A stretch of 64,000 nt of DNA from an uncultured Bacilli bacterium. Its GTDB lineage: Bacteria > Bacillota_I > Bacilli_A > RFN20 > CAG-826. Both the position numbers and the translations under genes were made by a program. The notes below the pieces were generated by a model, which ran no database searches, was not told where the DNA came from, and saw only the letters and a list, made by a program, of their open reading frames with translations. The stretch is from NCBI GenBank assembly GCA_944350425.1, contig CALVOX010000003.1:1-64000 (forward strand). Reading direction: 5' to 3'. Shown here one piece after another: positions 29,241-44,431 of this stretch; the stretch's first letter is position 1; the number at the start of each line of letters is the position of its first letter.

Positions 29241-30374
29241 TTATTGTAAATTCCTTTCGTAATCTAAAAGAATGATTTCTCCAGTTCCTTTATTAATTAC
29301 TTCATTTTCTTTAATTATTGTATCTGGCCCTAAAATTGCATTTTCAACATAAGCGCCGCTTTTAATAACAACACCAGGCATTAAGACAGATTTAATTACT
29401 TTAGCATCTTTTTCGATTAAAACTTCGTTTGAAATAACAGACTCTTCAACATTACCATAGATGAAAGCGCCTTGATTGATTAAGCAATCTTTAACAACGG
29501 CAGATTTATCGATAAATTGAGGATAAGATGATGTATCTTCACTATAAACTTTTGGATAATCATCGAAATGAATTGTTTCTTCATTTCTTTGAGATGGTAA
29601 AAGTTCCATATTAGCTTGATGTAAAGAATCAAGAGTTCCAACATCTCTCCAATATCCTTTAAATCTATAAGCAACTAATTTTTGATTATTATTTAACATC
29701 TTAGGAATAATATTTTTTCCAAAATCATGCTCACTATCTGGATCTTTAGCATCTTCTAACAAAGCTTTTCTTAAAACTTTATATGTAAATACGTAAACAC
29801 CCATAGAGGCAAGATTTGATTTAGGTACTTTTGGTTTTTCAACGAATTTTGTAATTGTATCATTAGAATCAACCTCAAGTATTCCGAATCTTGAAGCTTC
29901 TTTAATATCAACTTCAAGAACTGAAATTGTACAATCGGCCTTTGACTCGATATGAAGTTGTATCATCTTATCATAAGTAGTTTTATAAATATGATCGCCA
30001 GATAAGATTAATACGTATTTTGGATCTTCATCATCGAGAAATGCTAAGTTTTGATAAATTGCATCAGCTGTTCCTTTGTACCAATTAGCTCCATCTTCTG
30101 TTTGACGTGGGGCTAAAGCTACACAAGTTGAACCAACTCCATCAAATCCCCACTTGGCACCATTACCAATGTAGTTATTTAAAACGATACTCTCGTATTG
30201 AGTTAAAACACCAACCGAGTCAATCGAAGAATTAGCTACGTTAGATAAAGAAAAATCTATGATTCTATATTTTCCACCAAAATAAACCGCTGGTTTAGCA
30301 ACTCTTTTGGTTAAAGCATGGAGTCTAGTACCCTTACCTCCAGCAAGAATCATTGCTACAACATTTCTACCCAT
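29241..30374 (-). CDS. glgC: Glucose-1-phosphate adenylyltransferase
   Basis: Makes ADP-glucose from glucose-1-phosphate and ATP, the committed step of glycogen synthesis. Catalytic loop AGGKGTRLHALTKRVAKPAV (10-29), substrate motifs YRIIDFSLSN, ILSGDHIYK and FVEKPKVP, then a beta-helix C-terminus. At 377 residues it is typical of Bacilli. GGGAGGAAAAT before the ATG marks a strong start, with TATAAT at 30393-30398 on the minus strand. First gene of the glgCDA operon; no branching enzyme or phosphorylase gene is in the window. Confidence 0.97.
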   Translation of the reverse strand: MGRNVVAMILAGGKGTRLHALTKRVAKPAVYFGGKYRIIDFSLSNVANSSIDSVGVLTQYESIVLNNYIGNGAKWGFDGVGSTCVALAPRQTEDGANWYKGTADAIYQNLAFLDDEDPKYVLILSGDHIYKTTYDKMIQLHIESKADCTISVLEVDIKEASRFGILEVDSNDTITKFVEKPKVPKSNLASMGVYVFTYKVLRKALLEDAKDPDSEHDFGKNIIPKMLNNNQKLVAYRFKGYWRDVGTLDSLHQANMELLPSQRNEETIHFDDYPKVYSEDTSSYPQFIDKSAVVKDCLINQGAFIYGNVEESVISNEVLIEKDAKVIKSVLMPGVVIKSGAYVENAILGPDTIIKENEVINKGTGEIILLDYERNLQ

Positions 30375-30444: not shown

Positions 30445-33400
30445 TTAATCTAATTTTGAGAAAATTCTAACACAAGATGAATTTTTTGTATGCAAAACAA
30501 CTAATGTTTCGTCTACTAAAGGCGAAATATCTGGTATTTTATCGCTAGGACAAGAGATGATAACTTGAAGATTGAACTTTCTAAGAAGTTTAACAGCTTC
30601 TTTAATTCTTCCTCTATCCATTTTGGAAAATGCTTCATCAAAAACAATGAGTCTAGAGGTATTTGCCATCTCTCCTTCTTGATTAACATGATAAAGTTGT
30701 GCAAAAGAAGCAAGAACCGCAATATAGAATGGAGTTTGAGTTTCACCACCACTCTTCTTTTTAATCATTTTAGAAAGTCTTTGTTCTTCGCCGCTTTCTT
30801 TATTTATAACAATAAGATCGAAATCTAAATAAGAACGATAATCAGTGAATCTGGAAATATTTTGGAGAAGTTCTTCATTACTTCCTTTATCGTCATTAAC
30901 ATCGACAATTTGTCTAAATAAATCCTCCATAACATCTTTATATTTATTTAAGAATAAGGATTCATCTTCTCCGCCTTCGAGAATAATATCATCTTTTAGC
31001 ATATCATAATATCTTCTAAAGACTAAGGATGGTTTTACTGTAAAACGATATAAGTCAACACCAAAAGAAGATTCTTTTAAAGCATTATTAAGGTTGTCGA
31101 TTTGGTCTTCAACATCACTAATCGCTCCTCTAAGTTTAAAGATAAAATCATCTTTAAATTGTTGAGTTGCTTTTAAGTATGCATCATGAATTTGTTCCGT
31201 ATAATCAGGGAGCTTAACGTCTCTAAATTCTTTAAGTTCCTTTTCAAAAGTCTCGTTATCTTTTGTATCAGGATCGTAAGAAAGTCGATATTCATGAACA
31301 TAATCTCTTCTTAATTTACAAACTTGAGTAAAAATATTATTGAAAATATATTGAATTCTTGAAAGAGTAGCATTTGCTTCGCTTAAAATTTCAATATAAG
31401 TTTTACCTTCAGCAACTTTTTCTTTAAAATAAGGCTCAGCTTCGCTTAAAACAAATGAAACATCATAATTTTTATCTAAAGATTCCTTTCTTTCTTTAAT
31501 TAGATTTTCTTCAGTGCTTACCTTATCATTTTTCAAAGATTCAATTTGCTTAATTAAATTTCCTTTTTCTAAAAGTAATGATTCTTTTTGAGCATTAACC
31601 TCTTTAATATCATCGTCAACGTCTTCTAAACGTTTATCTAAAGAAGCAATTAGAGCCGTGTCTTGTTCGCTAAGTTCATTATCAAGGTATTCTAAAGTCT
31701 CTTTGTAACCTTTTAATTCACTGCTTCTTGCAATAGATTTTAAAATATGTTCAATTTCACTATTAGATATAAGTTCAAGATTATTAGCTTCAGTTATTAA
31801 ATTATTTAATTCTTTATAATAAGAAATATTTAATAAATTAGATTTAAGTTGTTTTGCTTTTTCGTCAAAGAAACGTGAGCCAATATCTCGACCGATATAA
31901 CTTTCTTGATATAAACGAGGATTAATTTTAGAAAGAGTAAAATTACGATATAAATCGCATTCTCTTGTTATACCATTTTGAGAAAGTCGAGCCTCTTCAA
32001 TATCATCAGCCTTAGTAAGTCTTCCAATTAAGAAATTTGTATAGGCTCTTGCACCTTCATGTTCAGTTTCAATTTCAGAAGCAAGTGAATCTTCGTTATA
32101 TTCATAATTACGATCAATGATTTTTTCTTGGTCAACTAAAGCAGTTGAATAATAACGATATTCTTCAAGTAGTCTTCTTAAAATACTATAAGCATCAAGG
32201 TAATATTTTGGGGCAACAAAAAGGTTAAATTTCTGTGAATAGAGATAACCTTCAATTGCATTAGCCCACTCTTCGTCTTTAATAGAAACTAAGTCGCAAT
32301 AAAGTTCGACATCGATTTTCTTGTTAAATTTTAAAGATAATTCATCTTGTAATCTTTTTTTGATTAAAGTTAAACGTTGGTCAAAAGGTTTAGTACCTTT
32401 TTTCATATTTGCTTGTTCTTCTTTTAAACTTTCGACACGTTTAGAAAGATTAGAAATAGTTCTAGCCAAAGAAATAGCTAAAGAAGAAACGTTTTCTTTA
32501 AAGTTTTTCGTAACATCTTTAAATTCACTCAAATCATCTTTGTTTATACTTAAAATATCAGTTTCAATTTTTGATTTTAATGAAGTTCCAACTTTAACAA
32601 CATTCTTAGACGAAGTCAAAATTTCAGAAATTTCCTCTGCTTTATCTTCATCAAGAGCATCTTTATCAACTTTATTTAAATTTTCAAGTAAAGAATTAGC
32701 TTCATGTAAATATGAATTAACATAATAAGTTAATTCAGAATTAACGCTAGATATTTCTTCATTTATTTGATTAATTTTTTGGTTAACTTCTTTCTTTTGA
32801 TTATATAAATCTTCACTAATCTTTGCGACATTATTATTCATTTTATCTTGAATTAAACGTAGTTTTCTTTTTTCGAGTTCGTTTAAATCTAATCTATATT
32901 CTTCTAGTTCGTTATCAATTTCTTTTATTCTATCTTCACTTTTAACGATTTCTTCTTTAAAAGCTTTTAATTTTTCTTCACTAGAATAAAGCTCACACCT
33001 TTCAATTAAATATTTGTTAAGTAAAAAATCTCCTTCTCTTTCTTTATAAGAAGAATAGACCCTAGAAATTTCTTCAAGTTTATCAACTCTTTGCTTAATA
33101 TTTTCGCTTTCAACTTGAAGTTTACGATATTGTAAAATATTTTCTTGAAGATGCGATAAATCTAAATTTTCTTGTGGGTTACAAACATATTCGGTAATAA
33201 ACGTTGTAATATCTGTAATTGGGGAGAAAGATGTCGATTTCTTTAAAAGCGAGAAATAGATATCTTTTAATCCGCCAAGACGTCTTTTTAAAAATTCTTG
33301 ATATTGTTTATTTGAATCGAAAAAACGATATTTACCGTCGTATTCATTCTTCAAATATTTAACTAATGCTTTATATTCAAGCGGTACTTTATTAACAACA

Positions 33401-33816
33401 AATTCATTTTCAGGAATTTTATCTTCAATATTAAAGAAATGATGTTCTTCACTTCCATCTTCATAAGTATCTAAACAAATACCTAAAACAAAATCTTTAT
33501 TTTCAAAATCATCATGAAATTCAATTGCTATATAAGAAGTAAATCTTCCATTTCTTAGGTATCTAAAACCACCAGAAGAATCATCGCCAATTTCACCTCT
33601 AAGATAACCTTTTAAGGTACGAGAAGATTTTCCTAAAGCGGCTTTATTGAAGTTATAACCTGTAGTATCTCCTAATAAAACAACTTCAATACCATCAATC
33701 AAAGTTGATTTACCACTACCATTAAGTCCAGTTAAAAATACAATAGGTTTAATATCAAAAGTTTCGTTCCAAAAATAATGCCAGTTTATAATTTTAATTT
33801 TCGTAATAAGTTTCAT
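30445..33816 (-). CDS. jetC: JetC-like SMC ATPase (Wadjet/MksB/MukB-like)
   Basis: The ATPase of a MukB/MksB-type SMC complex. Walker A GLNGSGKST lies at residues 30-38. Two long coiled-coil arms (about 230-500 and 690-930) flank a hinge, and the C-terminal head has the signature KKKSGGETQTPFYIAVL and Walker B RLIVFDEAFSKMD. The 1123-residue length and the DEAFSKMD form match JetC of Wadjet systems and MksB/EptC rather than SMC or RecN. It overlaps jetB by 23 bases and ends 70 bases before glgC. The nuclease gene jetD, normally next to jetC, is not here. Such complexes extrude DNA loops; in Wadjet they detect plasmids, in MksBEF they compact chromosomes. Confidence 0.92.
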   Translation of the reverse strand: MKLITKIKIINWHYFWNETFDIKPIVFLTGLNGSGKSTLIDGIEVVLLGDTTGYNFNKAALGKSSRTLKGYLRGEIGDDSSGGFRYLRNGRFTSYIAIEFHDDFENKDFVLGICLDTYEDGSEEHHFFNIEDKIPENEFVVNKVPLEYKALVKYLKNEYDGKYRFFDSNKQYQEFLKRRLGGLKDIYFSLLKKSTSFSPITDITTFITEYVCNPQENLDLSHLQENILQYRKLQVESENIKQRVDKLEEISRVYSSYKEREGDFLLNKYLIERCELYSSEEKLKAFKEEIVKSEDRIKEIDNELEEYRLDLNELEKRKLRLIQDKMNNNVAKISEDLYNQKKEVNQKINQINEEISSVNSELTYYVNSYLHEANSLLENLNKVDKDALDEDKAEEISEILTSSKNVVKVGTSLKSKIETDILSINKDDLSEFKDVTKNFKENVSSLAISLARTISNLSKRVESLKEEQANMKKGTKPFDQRLTLIKKRLQDELSLKFNKKIDVELYCDLVSIKDEEWANAIEGYLYSQKFNLFVAPKYYLDAYSILRRLLEEYRYYSTALVDQEKIIDRNYEYNEDSLASEIETEHEGARAYTNFLIGRLTKADDIEEARLSQNGITRECDLYRNFTLSKINPRLYQESYIGRDIGSRFFDEKAKQLKSNLLNISYYKELNNLITEANNLELISNSEIEHILKSIARSSELKGYKETLEYLDNELSEQDTALIASLDKRLEDVDDDIKEVNAQKESLLLEKGNLIKQIESLKNDKVSTEENLIKERKESLDKNYDVSFVLSEAEPYFKEKVAEGKTYIEILSEANATLSRIQYIFNNIFTQVCKLRRDYVHEYRLSYDPDTKDNETFEKELKEFRDVKLPDYTEQIHDAYLKATQQFKDDFIFKLRGAISDVEDQIDNLNNALKESSFGVDLYRFTVKPSLVFRRYYDMLKDDIILEGGEDESLFLNKYKDVMEDLFRQIVDVNDDKGSNEELLQNISRFTDYRSYLDFDLIVINKESGEEQRLSKMIKKKSGGETQTPFYIAVLASFAQLYHVNQEGEMANTSRLIVFDEAFSKMDRGRIKEAVKLLRKFNLQVIISCPSDKIPDISPLVDETLVVLHTKNSSCVRIFSKLD

Positions 33817-34450
33817 CTTCTTTTACCTCATCATTTTCGTTTAAGGAATTAATTTGATCAAGTGCATTCGACATTGCAGCAACTTTCTCATTGTCTAAAG
33901 CATATACAATCGAAGGAAGAATATAAAAAGCTACATTCCCTTCATCATAATTTCCACTAACTTTATTTAAAATATTATGTTGGACTAAAAATCTTAATGA
34001 TTTTGCTAAATTTCTTCCAGTTAGTTTTTTATTTGGAAGTAAAATTCCATGTTCTAACATTGTTCTTACTAAAGATTGAGTAGTTAAATAAATTGCTTCA
34101 CTTGTAGAAGAAGATTGATCTCTTTCGGTTTCATAAATTAATCTCAATGTAAAAATTAATAAAGAAGTTTCTCTATCAAGACGAAAATGATTTTCATTAT
34201 TTTCATTTAGCAAAGCAACAACGCCTAAAATAGTATCTTTTTCAATTCTCCAATTAGCAAAGGAAAGATAAGAGTTAATTAACTCATAATTTTTTTCAAT
34301 AAAACGGTAGGTGGGAGATATTTTTATAATTTTTTCTTTAGGGTCAAAGATATCTCTAACGATAAAACCTTTGAGCAAAATTGTATTAACAATACTTCCA
34401 AATTGGTTTTTTTCACCAAGAGATAGTTCGTTATATTTTTCTTCAAACAT
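33794..34450 (-). CDS. jetB: JetB-like kleisin-associated subunit (DUF4194)
   Basis: Small winged-helix partner of the JetC ATPase (DUF4194/MksE-like). Markers are LNENNENHFRLDRETSLLIFTLRLIYE, TTQSLVRTMLEHG and the winged-helix ending FLVQHNILNKVSG. The acidic C-terminal tail (NENDEVKEDETYYEN) is translated across the start of jetC. AGGAGG lies 11 bases before its ATG, across the jetA stop. Position between jetA and jetC is the canonical order. Confidence 0.9.
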   Translation of the reverse strand: MFEEKYNELSLGEKNQFGSIVNTILLKGFIVRDIFDPKEKIIKISPTYRFIEKNYELINSYLSFANWRIEKDTILGVVALLNENNENHFRLDRETSLLIFTLRLIYETERDQSSSTSEAIYLTTQSLVRTMLEHGILLPNKKLTGRNLAKSLRFLVQHNILNKVSGNYDEGNVAFYILPSIVYALDNEKVAAMSNALDQINSLNENDEVKEDETYYEN

Positions 34451-34452
34451 TA

Positions 34453-35889
34453 TTAATTATCCTCCTTTACTTGTTCGTCTTTTTTTACAAAAGTGAAATC
34501 AGGAATTAAATATCCGCCGTTAACAACTTCTTTGTTATCGTTCAACTCAATTGTATAAAACGAAGTATCATCGTCATATTTACAAATAGCTAAAATTAAG
34601 TAAATAATCGATTCTTCCGAATCTAAAACCATATCTTTAGTTGAAATTTCTTTCTTTCCTGAAAGTGAAGATTCAATAAATGAATAAACCTTATCATCGC
34701 TAAACATATTTGATGTATGTTCAATAAATTCATCCATCATAACATCGCTAGCATCATCAAAATAAGGAATTTCCATTGGTTCACCTTTTTCTTTAAATCT
34801 TTTTAAGATTGGTAAAATAAGTGAGTCAGAATCAATGTAACCTTGCTCATAGAAATCAAAAGACTCGTTCATCATATCTAAGATTTTATTGCGGAAACGA
34901 GTATCATCTTTACTAGCAGCAAAATATTTAAAGATATTTTCTAAATGACCTTTAATGGTTCGGTCAGAATTATTTAAATATAAAATCTTTTGAGTAGAAG
35001 CTTTAGTGTATTGACTATTTTCTTTGTCAATCGAATTAATTAATGAATTAAGACTAGAATAAGTATCAGTTATGTAATTTATTTTTGTAATAATATCATT
35101 TTCAATTTCTTGCTTATTATTATTTCTTGCACTCAAAGAAGCAAGTAAAACTAATTTATTTCTAATTTCTTTGTTATTTAACCATCTATCAAGGATTTTA
35201 ATAATAGGCCTTTTAAATTTAGCAACACTATCAAAAGTTTTTAATGGATGGTAATATCGATCACTAATTTTCTTTTTATAAATATCAAAATAAGAATGCA
35301 AAACTTCGTTTGTATCAAATAATTTAGTCAATCTATTTTGAAATATTCTAATTGAGTGAGTTAAAGTAATAAGTTCAACTTTTAATTTCTTAGTATTTTC
35401 ATAACATCTTAAAAGAGTTGCATAGATTAAATCATCAAGTTCTTCATCTTCAAGTTTTAATTCGCTATAAGTTGAATGAACTAAAGAAACATAAGGAGAT
35501 TCTTCATCACTAACAATATCATTAAATGTTTTTAATAATGAAATTGTATAAGGTGGTAAAACTACTACTTCTTCATAGTTATCTATATCCATCGAAATAT
35601 CGACCCAACCTGTTTCTTCTAATCTTCTTAAAATAAAAGAAGCTTTTGAAGAATCGCTTAGCAAAGCACCTTCTTCTAACTCTTCCTTACTTAATTCTTC
35701 CTCCAAATCCAATAAATCTAAACTCGTTTCTTTAGCTTTAATTGCACTTAAAAAATCATTCTTTTTTATTACACTTTCTTCATTTTGAAGTAATGAATAA
35801 AGAATTTGCAAAGCTTCGATATAAATCTCTCTATTTTTTCCAGAAAATATAGAGAAATAATTACTAGGAACTATATTAAATAAATTCAT
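34453..35889 (-). CDS. jetA: JetA-like kleisin subunit
   Basis: Kleisin-type subunit of the JetABC complex (Wadjet JetA/MksF). The N-terminus NLFNIVPSNYFSIFSGKNRE followed by IYIEALQILYSLL is characteristic, and the body is helical throughout. An ATG seven codons upstream (35910) is in frame, but the family begins at MNLF, so I use 35889. Neither start has a ribosome site; a TATAAT box precedes the upstream ATG by four bases. First gene of the jetABC operon, divergent from rpmB, with a palindrome between them. Confidence 0.9.
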   Translation of the reverse strand: MNLFNIVPSNYFSIFSGKNREIYIEALQILYSLLQNEESVIKKNDFLSAIKAKETSLDLLDLEEELSKEELEEGALLSDSSKASFILRRLEETGWVDISMDIDNYEEVVVLPPYTISLLKTFNDIVSDEESPYVSLVHSTYSELKLEDEELDDLIYATLLRCYENTKKLKVELITLTHSIRIFQNRLTKLFDTNEVLHSYFDIYKKKISDRYYHPLKTFDSVAKFKRPIIKILDRWLNNKEIRNKLVLLASLSARNNNKQEIENDIITKINYITDTYSSLNSLINSIDKENSQYTKASTQKILYLNNSDRTIKGHLENIFKYFAASKDDTRFRNKILDMMNESFDFYEQGYIDSDSLILPILKRFKEKGEPMEIPYFDDASDVMMDEFIEHTSNMFSDDKVYSFIESSLSGKKEISTKDMVLDSEESIIYLILAICKYDDDTSFYTIELNDNKEVVNGGYLIPDFTFVKKDEQVKEDN

Positions 35890-36009
35890 AATTTGTATAA
35901 AAAATAACATTGAAATTATATCATTAATAGGTTCTATAAAAAAGCAAAAATAAAGTTTTTTTGTGTAAGATTTATAAGATATTTTTTTAAATTATTAAGC
36001 AAAAATCAT

Positions 36010-37032: not shown

Positions 37033-37692
37033 CTATTCTCCTTTTAATAAAGAAATTGCTTTCATTCGAGACTCTGCTTTAAAGATATATGATCCAGAAA
37101 CTAATATATCAGCTCCTTTTTCTATGCATTTTCTCGAAGTTATATCATTAATTCCGCCATCAACCTCGATTAAAAAGTGATAGGAATCTTCTGTTCTTAT
37201 TTTATCAAAAAATTCGATTTTATTTAACGAATTTGTCATAAATTCTTGTCCACCGAATCCTGGCTCAACACTCATTACTAAAACTAAATCTAAATAGGGT
37301 AAAAAATCCTCAATTTCTTTTGGGGCAGTATTTGGTTTGATTGATAAACCAACCTTTGCTCCTTCTTTATGAATTAATTCAATTAATGGTAGAATTTCTT
37401 CCTTCTTCATCGCTTCATAATGAAAAGTAATAATATTTGCACCGTTTTTTATAAATTCTAAATAATATTTTTTAGGATCGCTTATCATTAAATGCACATC
37501 GATTATTAATGAAGTAACATTTTTAATACATTTTAAAACATATGGCCCAAAAGAAATATTATTAACAAAATGCCCGTCCATTACATCGAAGTGCAAATAA
37601 GATGCACCTTCTTCTTTCAATGAACTTATTTCTTTTTCTAAATTTTTAAAATCAGCGGATAAAATTGATGGAGCAACAAATACTTTCTTCAT
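37033..37692 (-). CDS. rpe: Ribulose-phosphate 3-epimerase
   Basis: Interconverts ribulose-5-phosphate and xylulose-5-phosphate. TIM-barrel signatures: VAPSILSADFKNLEKE at the start, HFDVMDGHFVNN (metal ligands near 34-40), VHLMISDP, VMSVEPGFGGQ, and VDGGIN with the catalytic Asp near 176. At 219 residues it is standard. It lies 14 bases after prkC; the Bacilli stp-prkC-rsgA-rpe order is kept except that rsgA is missing here. Confidence 0.97.
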   Translation of the reverse strand: MKKVFVAPSILSADFKNLEKEISSLKEEGASYLHFDVMDGHFVNNISFGPYVLKCIKNVTSLIIDVHLMISDPKKYYLEFIKNGANIITFHYEAMKKEEILPLIELIHKEGAKVGLSIKPNTAPKEIEDFLPYLDLVLVMSVEPGFGGQEFMTNSLNKIEFFDKIRTEDSYHFLIEVDGGINDITSRKCIEKGADILVSGSYIFKAESRMKAISLLKGE

Positions 37693-37706
37693 ACTTCTAT
37701 TTTATA

Positions 37707-38609
37707 TTATTTTCTTCTACTATAGTTAAAAATTCGGTCAAAAAAATTGACTGATTTTGAAATAACAGATTTATTATGATAAAGTTTTTCAATATCGTTT
37801 TTCATTTCACTTGCCGTTTTATATCTTAAAGATAAATCTTTATTAGTTGCTTTAAACACAATATCTTCTGTTTCTTTTGGCAAAGAAACCATAAAACTTA
37901 ATGGCGAAGGAATATCATATTTTATATGAGCAAGGGCTATCTTATTAATGTTATCTTCGTCTCCCTTACTCATAAATGGCAAACACCCAGTTAAAAGTTC
38001 TAGAAAAGTTACTCCAGCACTATAAATATCACTTTGTTCGTTTGCTTTTGCTCCTTTTATAACTTCTGGAGCCATATAGTGAACTGTTCCAACAACTTTT
38101 TTATATTCATCGATTCCCATTCTTGAACCTTTAATAATTGAGATACCAAAATCCGAAACTTTAGCAATTCCATCGGTCCCATAAAATATATTTTGCGGCT
38201 TTAAATCGCGATGTATTATTCCTTTTTGATGCATAAAAGTTAAAGCTGATAAAACTTGAATCATAATTTGGCAAGATTCAGCTAAAGAAAAATATCCTTT
38301 AAAATTTAAAGCATCTTTTAGGGTTTGCCCTTTTTGAAACTCATTTACAATAAAAGCTTGTCCCTTATATCTTCCATAGTTAAAAATTTTTACAATATTT
38401 GGATGATATAAAGAAGAAGCAATACGGGCTTCATTTTCGAATCTTATTTGATTTTCTGTTATATTCATCGAAGCTTCGTTTAAAATCTTTATCGCTACAC
38501 TTCTTTTCATTATTATGTCATGAGCTTCATAAACATCACTCATTCCGCCATGTCCTAAAAAAGCTCTCACCTTATATCTATCATCAATCATGTCTGAGAT
38601 ATTAATCAT
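37707..38609 (-). CDS. prkC: Soluble Ser/Thr protein kinase (PrkC kinase domain only)
   Basis: Hanks-type kinase with all key elements: glycine loop LGHGGMSDVY, VAIKIL lysine, HRDLKPQN, VSDFG, and YMAPE activation end. The protein stops about 20 residues after the kinase fold (300 residues in total). It has no transmembrane helix and no PASTA repeats, unlike PrkC of walled Firmicutes. The frame opens at 38654, but the ATG at 38609 with GGGAG seven bases upstream overlaps the stp stop and begins like PrkC. Partner of the PP2C phosphatase directly upstream. Confidence 0.93.
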   Translation of the reverse strand: MINISDMIDDRYKVRAFLGHGGMSDVYEAHDIIMKRSVAIKILNEASMNITENQIRFENEARIASSLYHPNIVKIFNYGRYKGQAFIVNEFQKGQTLKDALNFKGYFSLAESCQIMIQVLSALTFMHQKGIIHRDLKPQNIFYGTDGIAKVSDFGISIIKGSRMGIDEYKKVVGTVHYMAPEVIKGAKANEQSDIYSAGVTFLELLTGCLPFMSKGDEDNINKIALAHIKYDIPSPLSFMVSLPKETEDIVFKATNKDLSLRYKTASEMKNDIEKLYHNKSVISKSVNFFDRIFNYSRRK

Positions 38610-39357
38610 TATTTGACTCCCATAAAATCGCAGAAATATTATCGCTTCCGCCATTAAAATTTGCTAAATTCACTAAAGAGTTAATTTTTTCATCAACAGT
38701 ATTTTTATTATTCAAAGTAGCCTCAATATCTTTCTTATCAACATTATTGTAAAGTCCATCGCTGCAAAGAAAAATACTCTCGCCATGATATTCATAAATA
38801 TTTATATCAAAAGAAACAGATGGGAAAAGTCCAATTGCATTGATTAAATAATGCTTTTTTGGATGGGTTTCGGCTTCTTTGCTACTAATTTGTCCTGATC
38901 TTAAAAGATAATTTACATATGTTTGATCTTCAGTTTTTTGAATTAGTTTACCATCTACTAAGAAATAACATCTAGAATCACCAGCATTTAAAATAATAAT
39001 CTTATCATTATGAATTAAAGCTAAGCACAAAGTTGTCCCACAACCTTTATAATTCTCATCAAAATCTTGCGTTCTGAAAATAAATTTATTAATTGCTTTA
39101 ACTTCTTTTACTAGCCAAAAATAAGCATTAAATATAGAAAAGAATTTATCTTTTGATTTAAAATCTCGTTCAAGAAATTCTTTTATTGTACCTGAAGCAA
39201 ATTCACCTTTTCTATGACCACCCATGCCATCAGCAACAAAAAGCAAAACGTCATTTGAAAAATTAACGAATCCCATAACTTGATCTTCGTTTGTTTTTCT
39301 TATCTTTCCTATGTCACATTTATAGGCGAAAATGCCATTATACTTATTTCTTCTCAT
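38602..39357 (-). CDS. stp: PP2C-family Ser/Thr phosphatase
   Basis: Dephosphorylates targets of the adjacent kinase. Metal-binding motifs: CDIGKIRKTNEDQV (first Asp and Glu region), VADGMGGHRKGE, NAGDSRCYFL, CSDGLYNNV and GGSDNISAI. At 251 residues it is normal for PrpC/Stp. Its start overlaps the rlmN end by 14 bases and its stop overlaps the prkC start, so the trio is tightly coupled. Confidence 0.96.
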   Translation of the reverse strand: MRRNKYNGIFAYKCDIGKIRKTNEDQVMGFVNFSNDVLLFVADGMGGHRKGEFASGTIKEFLERDFKSKDKFFSIFNAYFWLVKEVKAINKFIFRTQDFDENYKGCGTTLCLALIHNDKIIILNAGDSRCYFLVDGKLIQKTEDQTYVNYLLRSGQISSKEAETHPKKHYLINAIGLFPSVSFDINIYEYHGESIFLCSDGLYNNVDKKDIEATLNNKNTVDEKINSLVNLANFNGGSDNISAILWESNND

Positions 39358-40387
39358 TTTTTGCTCTCAATTGCCCACATGCAGCATCAATATCTGTACC
39401 GAACTCTTTTCTTATTGTAGCCGTAACTCCACATTTTGTTAATGTATCTAAAAAATTATGGACAGATTTTTCATCACTTCTTTGATAAACGAGCTCTTTA
39501 ATTGGATTATATGGAATTAAATTTACATAAGCTAGAGTTCCCTTAATAAGTCTTGCAAGTTCCTTAGCATTTTCTTGTGAATCGTTTAATCCTTTTAATA
39601 AAATATACTCAAAAGTTACTCTTCTTCCAGCTTCCTTTTCATAATATTTAACAGCAGACATAAGTTCATCCATAGGATATTGCTTAGATATTGGCATAAT
39701 TTTATTGCGAATTTCATCATTTGGTGCATGCAAAGAAATCGCTAAATTAATTTGTAAACCTTCTTTAGCATATTTTCTAATTCCTTCAACTAGTCCGCAT
39801 GTAGAAACAGTAATATGTCTTGCTCCAATAGCAAAACCATAAGGATGATTCAATATACGAATAAAATCTAAAACATTGTCATAATTATCAAAAGGTTCTC
39901 CAGTTCCCATTACAACAATGTGAGTAACTCTTTTATTAACATCTTCTTCTTTTAATAAATCATCCAAAACGAGAACTTGGCCAATCATTTCAGATGTTTC
40001 TAAATTTCTTTTTTTCTTTAAAAATCCTGAAGCGCAAAAAGCACAACCCATGTTGCAGCCAACTTCGCTAGAAACACAAGCAACATTTCCGTAGTTATAG
40101 CGCATTAAAACCGTTTCAACTAAAGCGCCATCTTCCATTTGAAGCAATAGTTTAATTGTTCCATCGCTACTTACTTGTTTTTTAAAAATACTTGGTTTGT
40201 TTAAGTTAAAATCTTTCTTTAAAACGTCTCTAAAAGCAGCTGAAATATCGCTCATTTCATCAAAATTTGTAACTCTTTTTTCATAAATCCACTTAAAAAG
40301 TTGAGTAGCACGATATTTCTTTTGAAAATACTCATTAACAAGTAGTTCTTCTAGTTTTTCTATTTTAAAGTTATAAAGGTTGAACAT
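39344..40387 (-). CDS. rlmN: Dual-specificity 23S rRNA/tRNA adenine C2-methyltransferase (radical SAM)
   Basis: Radical SAM enzyme that methylates A2503 of 23S rRNA and A37 of tRNAs. The cluster motif is CNMGCAFCASG (C-x3-C-x2-C, near 110-117), the GTGEPFDNYDN SAM loop follows, and the C-terminal catalytic Cys is in DAACGQLRAK. At 347 residues it is complete. The ATG shares one base with the upstream stop (TAATG). Confidence 0.97.
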   Translation of the reverse strand: MFNLYNFKIEKLEELLVNEYFQKKYRATQLFKWIYEKRVTNFDEMSDISAAFRDVLKKDFNLNKPSIFKKQVSSDGTIKLLLQMEDGALVETVLMRYNYGNVACVSSEVGCNMGCAFCASGFLKKKRNLETSEMIGQVLVLDDLLKEEDVNKRVTHIVVMGTGEPFDNYDNVLDFIRILNHPYGFAIGARHITVSTCGLVEGIRKYAKEGLQINLAISLHAPNDEIRNKIMPISKQYPMDELMSAVKYYEKEAGRRVTFEYILLKGLNDSQENAKELARLIKGTLAYVNLIPYNPIKELVYQRSDEKSVHNFLDTLTKCGVTATIRKEFGTDIDAACGQLRAKNEKK

Positions 40388-41628
40388 TATTTAATTCTCC
40401 TAATTAAGGCAAAATATAAAATTGAATTTTCTTCTTTAGTTGGAACATACATGCGCTGTAAATCTAAAGAATAAGAATCTTGATTTTTTTCTATAAAATC
40501 TTTTACAACATAGGCTGTTTCGTTAAGATTCAAAGTTGGGACTATATAAAGAAGTACCCCGTTAAACGCTAGCTTCTTCGATAGAGAAACAAGTCCTTCT
40601 TTTTGATTTTTGATAAGTTGATCAAAAGAAGCTGAATCAAAATATAAAGAGTAATCCGGTTCTTTTCTAAATATTTCAAAGTTAGAAGATTTAGGAGCGT
40701 AAAGAATAAAGTGTTGCTCTTCTTTTACTACATCGTTTATATCCTTCTCGATAGAGGTAAAAGTTTTCACGTAATCAAAATTATATTCGTTAATACCCGC
40801 GAAAAGTTTATTTTCACCTTCCATAGATGAAACAAAAGATAATTTATTATTTTTGTCAGCAAATTTTCTTAAAAAGTCATAACAAATAGTATCCTCATCG
40901 CCTATAAAACAAGTTAGATTCGAGTTAGTATAATCTTCTACTTCATCAAGAACGAGTTGAGTTGCAAATTGAGATGAGTAAATAATTCCATCATGATAGG
41001 CATCCTCTTTTCGTATTGAGTTATCAAGCAGAAATTCATAAAAATAAGAATTTATTTTCTTATAATTAGAATTTGGCTTAAAACCTTTCATATATTTAAC
41101 TGCCACAAACTGTCTTGGCATAGATGAAATCTCGTAAACTATTCTAAGACCATTAATTCTTCCATATTGTTTAGTAATTAGTTTAATTAACCATTCTGGT
41201 TTATTAAATCTTAAGGAATAATAACCGATACTTCCTTTTTTAATATCAAAAAATAGATAATTTCTTTTTTTAGAAATAACTTCTCTAATATAGGTAATTT
41301 CGTTTTTACTTAAAACATATCCTTTTTGAATAATAAAAGTTAAAAAAGAAGTAAACATTGCATTAGAATCTTCTTTATGCGTAAAAGCATTATTTACATA
41401 AAGTAAACCTAATTTAATTATTTCATCGCTTTCTTTTGGAAAATTTAATAATTTAGATAAATGGCAAATTAAAAAATAATTACGGAAAAATAAAGAAGAG
41501 ATGCGAGCTATTTCAAGTTGATCGTATCTACTTAAATCTTTAGTATACCTTTTGAATACATTTTTGAAAGGTTCATGATTTCTAAAGACTTCTTTAATAA
41601 TGTTGGTTGAAGTTTCATATAAATCCAT
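40387..41628 (-). CDS. RsmB-like protein lacking both catalytic cysteines
   Basis: Occupies the place of rsmB (16S rRNA m5C967 methyltransferase) before rlmN, with an N-terminal NusB-like helical domain and a C-terminal Rossmann-like domain. The PC catalytic motif reads YAPKSSNFEIFRKEPD, with Lys instead of Cys and Tyr instead of the preceding Asp. The TC motif reads LLYIVPTLNLNET, with Pro instead of Cys. The SAM loop DACAAPGGKT is replaced by TCFIGDEDTIC. The surrounding sequence still aligns well (for example the LIKNQKEGLVSLSKKLAFNG helix). It is therefore very unlikely to methylate RNA; it may bind the ribosome only. The frame extends to a TTG at 41673; the ATG at 41628 is the more likely start, though neither has a clear ribosome site. 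Confidence 0.85.
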   Translation of the reverse strand: MDLYETSTNIIKEVFRNHEPFKNVFKRYTKDLSRYDQLEIARISSLFFRNYFLICHLSKLLNFPKESDEIIKLGLLYVNNAFTHKEDSNAMFTSFLTFIIQKGYVLSKNEITYIREVISKKRNYLFFDIKKGSIGYYSLRFNKPEWLIKLITKQYGRINGLRIVYEISSMPRQFVAVKYMKGFKPNSNYKKINSYFYEFLLDNSIRKEDAYHDGIIYSSQFATQLVLDEVEDYTNSNLTCFIGDEDTICYDFLRKFADKNNKLSFVSSMEGENKLFAGINEYNFDYVKTFTSIEKDINDVVKEEQHFILYAPKSSNFEIFRKEPDYSLYFDSASFDQLIKNQKEGLVSLSKKLAFNGVLLYIVPTLNLNETAYVVKDFIEKNQDSYSLDLQRMYVPTKEENSILYFALIRRIK

Positions 41629-41714
41629 AACGACAATTAATTTGCTTTTATCCAAAAAAGCTTTTATTTTCAAATAATTATAAGTTAGAAAAATAAATAA
41701 TTAAATACTTGACA

Positions 41715-42191
41715 TTATTTATCTTTTTTCTCTTTATTAGCTTTAGCTAATTTTTCTTCAAATCCTTCGAAAGCATTCCCTAAATAAATGTCTTCATTAG
41801 AAGTATTTTCTTCTTCGTTTTCCTCATAAACATCAACGGAATTTTCTTCATCCATATAACGAGGATAGTCTTCGTTTTCATATTTATGATAATTATTGAT
41901 TGAAAAATAATAGAAGATACATTCTAAATGAACGGTAATGTTCTTAATATAATTTTCAATAATTTTATAAGCATCTTCTTCTAAAACGCTTAATTTTTTA
42001 GGAGCATGAACTTCTACTAAAATGGAGTAAGTATTTTGATCAACGCCTTCATGAACATATAAACATTCAGGTGCGAAAAAATTAATTTCATCTTTTGAAA
42101 TTTCATATAAATTTGCTAGTTTAGATGTCATATCTCTTGACAAATCATTTAATAAATAAGGATCAATTCCATAAACTTTAATTGTTATCAT
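41715..42191 (-). CDS. DUF1904-like small protein with an acidic tail
   Basis: The first 115 residues resemble DUF1904 proteins (tautomerase-like fold): a start such as ITIKVYGIDPYLLNDLSRDM, a central FFAPECLYV strand and YFSINNYHKYENEDYPRY at the end. The last 45 residues are highly acidic, then basic (AKANKEKKDK), and probably disordered. No catalytic proline follows the initiator Met, so tautomerase activity is unlikely. GAGG precedes the ATG. It lies between priA and the rsmB-like gene, where other Firmicutes carry def and fmt. Function unknown. Confidence 0.7.
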   Translation of the reverse strand: MITIKVYGIDPYLLNDLSRDMTSKLANLYEISKDEINFFAPECLYVHEGVDQNTYSILVEVHAPKKLSVLEEDAYKIIENYIKNITVHLECIFYYFSINNYHKYENEDYPRYMDEENSVDVYEENEEENTSNEDIYLGNAFEGFEEKLAKANKEKKDK

Positions 42192-42250: not shown

Positions 42251-44431
42251 TTATAAATCATAAGGATTTAGGTCAACATATAATCGAATATTTTTTGAAT
42301 TTTGAAACTTAAATAGTAATGATTGTAAGACAACTTTTACTCCGGTTAAATGTCCTGACTTTATAATTATTGTATAAGAATAATATGATTTATATAGATT
42401 TTGTATTTTTGAAAGCGAAACGTGGTCATTAATTAAAACTCGAGTCAATTCGCCCTCAATTCTTCTTGCTTCATTATAAGCTTCATACGGAGTTTTAGAA
42501 CAAACTTTAAGAGCAATTTGATTTACAAATGGAGGATAAAAGTATTTATATCTTCTTTTAATCTCAAAATTATAGAAAGAATCGTAATCACTATTTATTG
42601 CAAAGTTAATTACTTTATTATCTACTTGATATGTTTGAACCACAGCTTCTCCATCAATATATCTTCCGCTTCTTCCAATAGTTTGAACAAGTAAAGAAAA
42701 TGTATTTTCATTTGCTTTATATGAAGGAATATTAAGCATAGTATCGGCGTTAATAATTCCGACTAAAGATACATCTTTAAAATCATGTCCTTTAGCTACA
42801 ATTTGAGTTCCGATTAATACTTGAACTTTTTTTGAATTAAAATCTTCTAAAACTTTTTGAATTTGATTTAAAGTTGGGGTTTCATCACTATCTAAAACAA
42901 CGTAGTCGACTCCTTTAAATATTTTTTCAAATTCTTCTTTTACTTTTTCAATACCAAACCCATTATAGCTAATGTTAAGTGAGTTACAACTTGGGCAACG
43001 ATGAGTAAATTTATGATCATAATCGCAGTGATGGCACATTAAGTGGTCATTACTTCTATGATAAACAAGTGGCAAATTGCAATTTGGACATTTAAAAACA
43101 TAACCACATGAGTCACATATTAAGCTTGAAGAATATCCTCTTTTATTAATCATTAAAATAATTTGTTGTTTTTTCTTAAGTTTTTCATATATTTTATCAA
43201 TCAGAAAATTAGAAAAGATAGCTGAACCGCTTGTAAAATTACTCTTTCTTTTAAAATCAATTAATGAAATAACGTTTTCTTTCGGATTAAAGTATCTCGT
43301 ATTTAAAGTTTCTAATCTAATTTTTTTATTTTTAGCTTTTGCCATTAAATCGATCGAAGGTGTGGCACTTCCAAAAATTACTTTTGCGCCTTCAATATTA
43401 CTACGAAGTATAGCGATATCTTTGGCATTATATGTTAAATCAAAATCTTGTTTATAAGATTCATCATGTTCTTCATCGATAATAATATATTTTAAATTCT
43501 GAATAGGAGCAAAAATAGCGCTTCTTGTTCCAACTACAATCTTAACCTTTCCATCCGAGATTTTTCGATATTCATCATATCGTTCAGCTTGAGTTAAAGA
43601 GGAATGTAAAACGGCGATTTCTTCCTTAAAGTAAGAGATAATATGCGAAATCATCAAAGGCGTTAAGGCAACTTCAGGAACCAAAATTAATGTACCTTTA
43701 TTTTCTTTTAAAGCGTCTTCAATTAATTTAATATAGACTATTGTTTTTCCACTTCCTGTAACCCCTTTAAGAAGGAAAGTGTTTTCACGTGAGAAGATAA
43801 TATCTTCTAAAACTGCCTTTTGTTCTTCGCTAAGATTAATAATTTCATCATAATCAAAAGTAGCATTAGCTTGATAGCGATATTTCTCTTTTTCTATTAT
43901 TCTAATTATATTTTTGTTCAGTAAATTAGTTAAAGTCTTTGAGTCACCTAGATCATCGTATTGAACTAGTTTGGAATTAACAAATTTATTCAAAATTCTA
44001 TCTTCGATTTTATTTTCGGGAATATAGTTTTCATCAATCAATTCGTAAAACTTAATATATTGGATTTTAGCCTTATTAGTAAACGATGAATCTCCTCTTA
44101 AAGAAGGAGGCAACATTGTATTTAATACCCCAATCATCGTGTAAAGATATCTTTCTTTAACTTTTTTTGCTAAATAAAGGAGATTTTTATTAATAATTGG
44201 TTTCTCGTCAATAATTTCACTAATTTCTTTAAGTTTAAAACCTAATTCTTTCTGCTTTTGTTCTAAATCATCTATTTTTTCAACTTTTAAAATAAATCCA
44301 ACTAAAAATTGGCCATTAAAATTTATTCTAACTCTAGAGCCAACAAAAACTTCTTTACTTGAATAATAAGTAAAATTTCTATCAAGAGATAAAACTTTAT
44401 GTTCAGTTAAAACTGAAAGTAAATAAATCAT
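42251..44431 (-). CDS. priA: Primosomal protein N' (replication restart helicase)
   Basis: Superfamily 2 helicase that loads the replisome at stalled forks. Walker A GVTGSGKTIVY, DEEHDESY as Walker B, and the zinc-binding insert with four CxxC pairs (CDSCGYVFKCPNC, then CHHC and CPSC) are all present, followed by QIVAKGHDF and QTIGRSGR helicase motifs. At 726 residues it is slightly short, as in reduced Firmicutes. It overlaps gmk as ATGA. coaBC and rpoZ, usual neighbours between gmk and priA, are absent. Confidence 0.96.
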   Translation of the reverse strand: MIYLLSVLTEHKVLSLDRNFTYYSSKEVFVGSRVRINFNGQFLVGFILKVEKIDDLEQKQKELGFKLKEISEIIDEKPIINKNLLYLAKKVKERYLYTMIGVLNTMLPPSLRGDSSFTNKAKIQYIKFYELIDENYIPENKIEDRILNKFVNSKLVQYDDLGDSKTLTNLLNKNIIRIIEKEKYRYQANATFDYDEIINLSEEQKAVLEDIIFSRENTFLLKGVTGSGKTIVYIKLIEDALKENKGTLILVPEVALTPLMISHIISYFKEEIAVLHSSLTQAERYDEYRKISDGKVKIVVGTRSAIFAPIQNLKYIIIDEEHDESYKQDFDLTYNAKDIAILRSNIEGAKVIFGSATPSIDLMAKAKNKKIRLETLNTRYFNPKENVISLIDFKRKSNFTSGSAIFSNFLIDKIYEKLKKKQQIILMINKRGYSSSLICDSCGYVFKCPNCNLPLVYHRSNDHLMCHHCDYDHKFTHRCPSCNSLNISYNGFGIEKVKEEFEKIFKGVDYVVLDSDETPTLNQIQKVLEDFNSKKVQVLIGTQIVAKGHDFKDVSLVGIINADTMLNIPSYKANENTFSLLVQTIGRSGRYIDGEAVVQTYQVDNKVINFAINSDYDSFYNFEIKRRYKYFYPPFVNQIALKVCSKTPYEAYNEARRIEGELTRVLINDHVSLSKIQNLYKSYYSYTIIIKSGHLTGVKVVLQSLLFKFQNSKNIRLYVDLNPYDL

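Follow-up and report, generated by a model that had tools for sequence, protein, structure and literature searches.

An RsmB homologue that has lost its SAM loop and catalytic cysteines, retained before rlmN in uncultured Bacilli, as a candidate SAM-independent 30S assembly factor

The window, a stretch of 64,000 nucleotides from a genome of uncultured Bacilli, encodes a protein (P0001, hereafter pseudo-RsmB) that is the lineage's RsmB orthologue, very probably dead for m5C formation and retained as a binding protein. By analogy with E. coli RsmB, and with a probability of about 0.6, we propose that it is a SAM-independent assembly chaperone of the 30S subunit, acting on helix 31 (h31) and the 3' domain of 16S rRNA. 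Whether the methyl group or the presence of the protein matters in assembly is a long-standing question about rRNA methyltransferases. The pseudo-RsmBs are seemingly a natural separation-of-function experiment, in which catalysis is gone while selection has kept the protein in a large group of gut Bacilli (37 genera sampled) and, through a separate event, in a second family.

Locus and gene organization

The source genome (G000; 1.15 Mb, 17 contigs, 95% complete) belongs to a genus of uncultured Bacilli/Mollicutes metagenome-assembled genomes. The gene order at the locus is gmk-priA-DUF1904-P0001-rlmN-prpC-prkC-rpe, and the features considered here are as follows.

39344-40387, minus strand: rlmN, directly downstream of P0001
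40387-41628, minus strand: pseudo-RsmB P0001, 413 aa; Cys325 replaced by Ser314, Cys375 by Pro364, and the SAM loop (residues ~239-250) replaced
41629-41673, minus strand: possible 15-codon in-frame N-terminal extension of P0001, with a TTG start at 41673
41715-42191, minus strand: DUF1904-like P0002, adjoining pseudo-RsmB upstream; tautomerase/MIF-like fold, acidic low-confidence stretch, tail motif YLGNAFEGF
42251-44431, minus strand: priA, the upstream boundary of the locus

The P0001 frame is intact over 413 codons from the ATG at 41628. The TTG at 41673 is a less probable start, as the alignment of relatives begins at the ATG. The rlmN start codon and the pseudo-RsmB stop codon have one base in common. 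Locus comparison identified the place before rlmN as the conserved, ancestral position of RsmB; an intact frame in this place had been claimed by an earlier note made from the sequence alone, and both parts of the claim were borne out.

Loss of catalytic motifs

P0001 scored 41 bits against NF011494, the curated RsmB equivalog profile (cut-off 319), and therefore should not carry a methyltransferase annotation; against Pfam RsmB-F it scored 26.7 (cut-off 27). In an alignment anchored on E. coli RsmB (L065) and its relatives, the SAM loop LDLCAAPGGKT of E. coli corresponded to TCFIGDEDTIC in P0001, and the motif II aspartate D277 was also gone. The PC-motif cysteine C325 aligned with S314 and the TC-motif cysteine C375 with P364. 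The earlier description of an RsmB homologue without the SAM loop and either catalytic cysteine was thus confirmed, apart from one detail: its reading of PCS as PKS was off by one position, the PC cysteine column being S314 and not K313. The change in this column is from C to S, since members of family f3 read SSELGL or SSNLGM where canonical proteins have CSGFGV.

The same losses recurred in a survey of orthologues. The TC cysteine and the SAM loop were missing in all 86 proteins examined (families f1, f3 and f5; 37 genera), among which the sequence from G166 ends at a contig edge just at the TC motif. In E. coli numbering, and with a canonical reference set of nine proteins only, retention among the 86 was 0% for C375, D252, K260, D277 and D322 and 9% for C325, so that about a tenth still have a cysteine at the PC position. 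Residues that are nearly invariant in canonical RsmBs and lie outside the active site were largely retained: P144 (96%), W146 (82%), P324 (95%), G357 (98%), Y361 (95%), E370 (99%) and P396 (93%). Lineage-specific invariant residues include S315, R321, T365, N401 and S402, and the former PC and TC sites carry conserved PxSS(N) and T-x(3)-KE, respectively. Cysteines that might serve catalysis elsewhere in the chain were looked for, and no suitable column was found in the pseudo-RsmB set; cysteine is commonest in a column of the N-terminal domain at which P0001 has Leu. A frame, sequencing or assembly error was excluded, as independently assembled genomes, e.g. G023 (93% identical), have the same losses in intact frames. 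Taken on its sequence, P0001 is very probably catalytically dead as an m5C methyltransferase.

Predicted fold and selection

An AF2 model of P0001 built from 20 sequences of the genus had a pLDDT of 88.5 and a pTM of 0.84. Its best structural match was E. coli RsmB with SAM (1sqf; Foldseek E 4.4e-19), and VIA-align of residues 1-412 with 1sqf gave a Z of 32.5 over 394 residues at 13% identity, N-terminal domain included. By sequence, the pseudo-RsmB profile had no match among solved structures, whereas the fold search succeeded. In the predicted model, then, the RsmB fold is kept over the full length and the chemistry is lost; the earlier expectation that the flanking structure still aligns held for the whole chain. 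Compared with RsmB (Fmu/Sun; 1sqf, 1sqg), the 16S m5C967 methyltransferase, P0001 shares the place before rlmN, the full-length fold and the conserved non-catalytic residues, and differs in the loss of the SAM loop, the motif II Asp and the PC and TC cysteines, and in the DUF1904 gene upstream.

The NG86 dN/dS between the pseudo-RsmBs of G000 and G023 was 0.066. Over 13 pseudo-RsmB pairs the values ranged from 0.04 to 0.26, as pairwise estimates of which some have high dS; one canonical RsmB pair gave 0.147 and the neighbouring rlmN 0.02 to 0.09. Pseudo-RsmB is almost certainly maintained by selection. Order-wide conservation, purifying selection, the full-length fold and two origins lend strong support to the earlier suggestion of a pseudoenzyme retained for binding.

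Distribution and origins of the catalytic loss

Pseudo-RsmB was found in 25 of the 26 genomes of the genus, the window's included; the one without it is 52% complete. In a survey of 279 genomes of the order, the majority of genomes in f1, f3 and f5 had an orthologue, and canonical RsmB occupied the same locus in the sister families f2, f6, f7 and f8. No orthologue was found by this survey in genomes of f4, f1g9 or f1g6. In f5g28, two loci (L246, L247) have an extremely degraded pseudo-RsmB in the usual place before rlmN, and L246 has no DUF1904 gene within ~4 kb upstream. Pseudo-RsmB is therefore dispensable in some settings, given its absence from f1g9, f1g6 and f4 and its degradation in f5g28. 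Weak matches suggested f17 as a further degenerate clade; this was rejected, as a search with the RsmB profile of the order yielded no full-length orthologue in that family.

In a PriA+RlmN tree of 23 loci, a single branch with support of 100/100 parted pseudo from canonical carriers, and one ancestral loss thus accounts for the pseudo-RsmBs of the order. This tree was used instead of one based on RlmN only, which was too weak and placed some f1 rows outside. A second set of pseudo-RsmBs came from another family of Bacilli, f23, genera g86 and g121 (G363, G315, G523; L250, L251, L241), where the RsmBs are of ~360 aa. These proteins have APSSN, SPSSN or APSSG for PCSG and TNT for TCT, and their SAM loop is broken. 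They clustered with canonical RsmBs of f23 (100/99), and a clade uniting every pseudo-RsmB, those of f23 among them, was rejected (AU p = 0.00034). Together these results indicate that catalysis, with a C-to-S change at the PC site, was lost at least twice; PSSN at the PC motif is convergent between f23 and the pseudo clade of the order.

DUF1904-like neighbour

A DUF1904-like gene adjoined pseudo-RsmB on its upstream side at every f1 and f3 locus whose flank was long enough, and at most f5 loci (G055, G050, G045; missing in G038 and G063). It was present at none of the canonical loci, where priA abuts rsmB. The DUF1904-like and pseudo-RsmB genes are co-directional, and they often overlap or are separated by only a few bases. 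The earlier note was right about the gene context before rlmN and overlooked this linked gene.

P0002 scored 21.8 bits against Pfam DUF1904 (cut-off 24.1), and 12 of 19 relatives matched at E<=0.01. Its predicted fold matched the DUF1904/tautomerase structure 4m1a (E 2.6e-6, TM 0.78 on target). P0002 shares the tautomerase/MIF-like fold of the DUF1904 family (4m1a, 1u9d) and differs from it in an extra acidic tail with a conserved end motif and in its operon with pseudo-RsmB. The acidic stretch is of low confidence, and the tail motif, [YF]xG[ND]xF, is conserved in most members. Conserved tail motifs of this kind are the type of element that docks onto partners. Judging by gene linkage, P0002 is probably a partner of pseudo-RsmB. 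The partner is not obligatory, since the gene was not found next to the f23 pseudo-RsmBs or in G038 and G063. A literature search returned nothing informative on DUF1904, a family of unknown function for which this locus names a candidate role as partner.

Helix 31 and the fate of m5C967

Among the matches listed, all 35 genomes with canonical RsmB had C967-A968, and the 56 pseudo-RsmB carriers with 16S data had C967-U968 (40), C967-A968 (13) or A967-U968 (3). Among the 41 listed genomes without canonical RsmB, from seven families, 39 lacked C967 in every listed copy; of the other two, one had C967-U968 and one had two different 16S copies. Genomes in these tallies are not independent, and at the family level they compare 9 canonical families with 7 without the enzyme. 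The tallies agree with the reported loss of RsmB in the Pneumoniae, Hominis and AAP groups of Mollicutes (PMC4014445). U968 and pseudo-RsmB are not strictly linked, as 13 of the 56 carriers keep A968. The three A967 carriers (G017 of the window's genus, G132 and G170) have intact pseudo-RsmBs. Across the class Bacilli, nearly every RsmB-less family among the matches listed read AU or GU at positions 967-968. The RsmB-less genome G372 has two 16S copies on one contig (C1:1062366 and C1:1122548), with h31 loops C967-A968 and A967-U968.

No 16S copy was found in the G000 assembly. The only complete RsmB/F enzyme of this genome is RsmF (C1:178790-179653), which keeps CAAPGGKT, DAPCSG and STCS and has the RsmF N-terminal and PUA domains. 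RsmF (YebU) and P0001 share the methyltransferase domain of one superfamily; RsmF differs in keeping CAAPGGKT, DAPCS and STCS and in its own N-terminal and PUA domains. RsmD, the writer of the neighbouring m2G966, exceeded its cut-off in 50 of the 59 genomes; the G000 protein fell short of it (87.7 vs 117.5 bits). As the earlier note suggested, m5C967 is likely absent, because no further RsmB was detected in G000 and three carriers, one of the same genus, lack C967.

Proposed function and alternative explanations

The earlier note had raised ribosome assembly as a possible role, and this is also the reading that we favour. Pseudo-RsmB would bind nascent or early pre-16S rRNA in the 3' domain around h31, hold the h31 loop against misfolding with no methyl transfer, and depart once ribosomal proteins join; the DUF1904-like protein might dock via its tail motif and aid binding or release, as an example of joint work. 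In vitro, recombinant E. coli RsmB and RsmD together lower a misfolded class of the nascent 3' domain independently of SAM, an effect mimicked by replacement of the h31 loop (PMC13004024). In E. coli, knocking out rsmB causes 17S precursor rRNA to accumulate, and RsmB acts ahead of S19 joining (PMC7056703). The likeness lies in the proposed sequestration of h31 during co-transcriptional folding without methylation. The E. coli enzymes, however, were active and assayed jointly, whereas pseudo-RsmB has lost catalysis and its role is read here from sequence and predicted fold. A chaperone fits the selection on the RsmB fold and non-catalytic residues without SAM loop or cysteines, even in C967-less genomes. 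In NSUN4-MTERF4 (PMC3916286; 4fp9, 7of3), too, an m5C methyltransferase fold works with a partner protein to assemble a subunit, apart from its role in methylation; NSUN4 differs in being catalytically competent and in working with MTERF4, partly on the large subunit of the mitoribosome. The T. brucei Nop2 homologue keeps both cysteines, unlike pseudo-RsmB. In the literature searched, no paper on RsmB as a pseudoenzyme was found.

Charge counts against the chaperone reading, as many pseudo-RsmBs are net acidic: they average -1 per 100 aa, compared with +1.2 for canonical RsmBs, with genus averages down to -3.7; P0001 and the window's genus are at +1.6. In some lineages pseudo-RsmB may bind protein and not RNA. 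The loss of the protein from some lineages counts against a chaperone as well. Acidity and the tight linkage with DUF1904 and rlmN would also suit a subunit that plays no part at h31 and instead regulates or scaffolds DUF1904 or another enzyme; dead methyltransferases are commonly found paired with active partners. We consider this reading rather unlikely, because the full-length RsmB fold is kept, N-terminal domain included, and because these lineages also have a changed h31 sequence. Pseudo-RsmB might instead catalyse a different reaction or use a different cofactor, with the Ser/Asn/Lys of the former PC site and the Thr of the former TC site taking part. This would explain why PxSS(N) and T-x(3)-KE are conserved and why PSSN recurs in the second origin. 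It is improbable, however: motif I residues vary freely among genera, so that there is no constant cofactor site, and canonical proteins already have this S and T next to their cysteines (CS, CT).

It is very unlikely that m5C967 is still formed by RsmF, whether unaided or together with pseudo-RsmB. The DAPCS and STCS motifs of RsmF are intact and C967 is kept in 53 of the 56 pseudo carriers among the matches listed, but its N-terminal and PUA domains are those of RsmF, RsmF-like proteins also accompany canonical RsmB in relatives, and C967 is gone in three carriers. Decay of an RsmB relic heading for loss might be read from the several sister lineages without detectable RsmB and from the very degraded f5g28 proteins. 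For P0001 it is scarcely credible, given the intact frames in nearly all loci, the dN/dS values of the 13 pairs, the lineage-specific invariant residues and an origin that predates the split of the three families.

Returning to the chaperone, its retention suggests that the protein, and not the methyl mark, aids ribosome building, and predicts a methyl-independent role of RsmB more widely. Pseudo-RsmBs offer a ready set of natural catalytically dead proteins for an h31 folding assay. More tentatively, pseudo-RsmB and DUF1904 might form a two-component, SAM-free 30S assembly factor born of catalytic loss, with which h31 (position 968, at times 967) co-evolved, the chaperone having split from the chemistry at least twice in Bacilli; we regard this fuller scheme as possible but doubtful.

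Other features of the window

At canonical loci and at several pseudo loci, rsgA sits next to prkC with rpe on its other side; in the window's genus it is absent from that interval (37692-37707 in the window). The condensin genes JetA, JetB and JetC (MksBEF/Wadjet type I) lie at 30445-35910 on the minus strand. No JetD-like nuclease ORF is evident beside them, and the next genes, at 29241-30374, are glgC-like.
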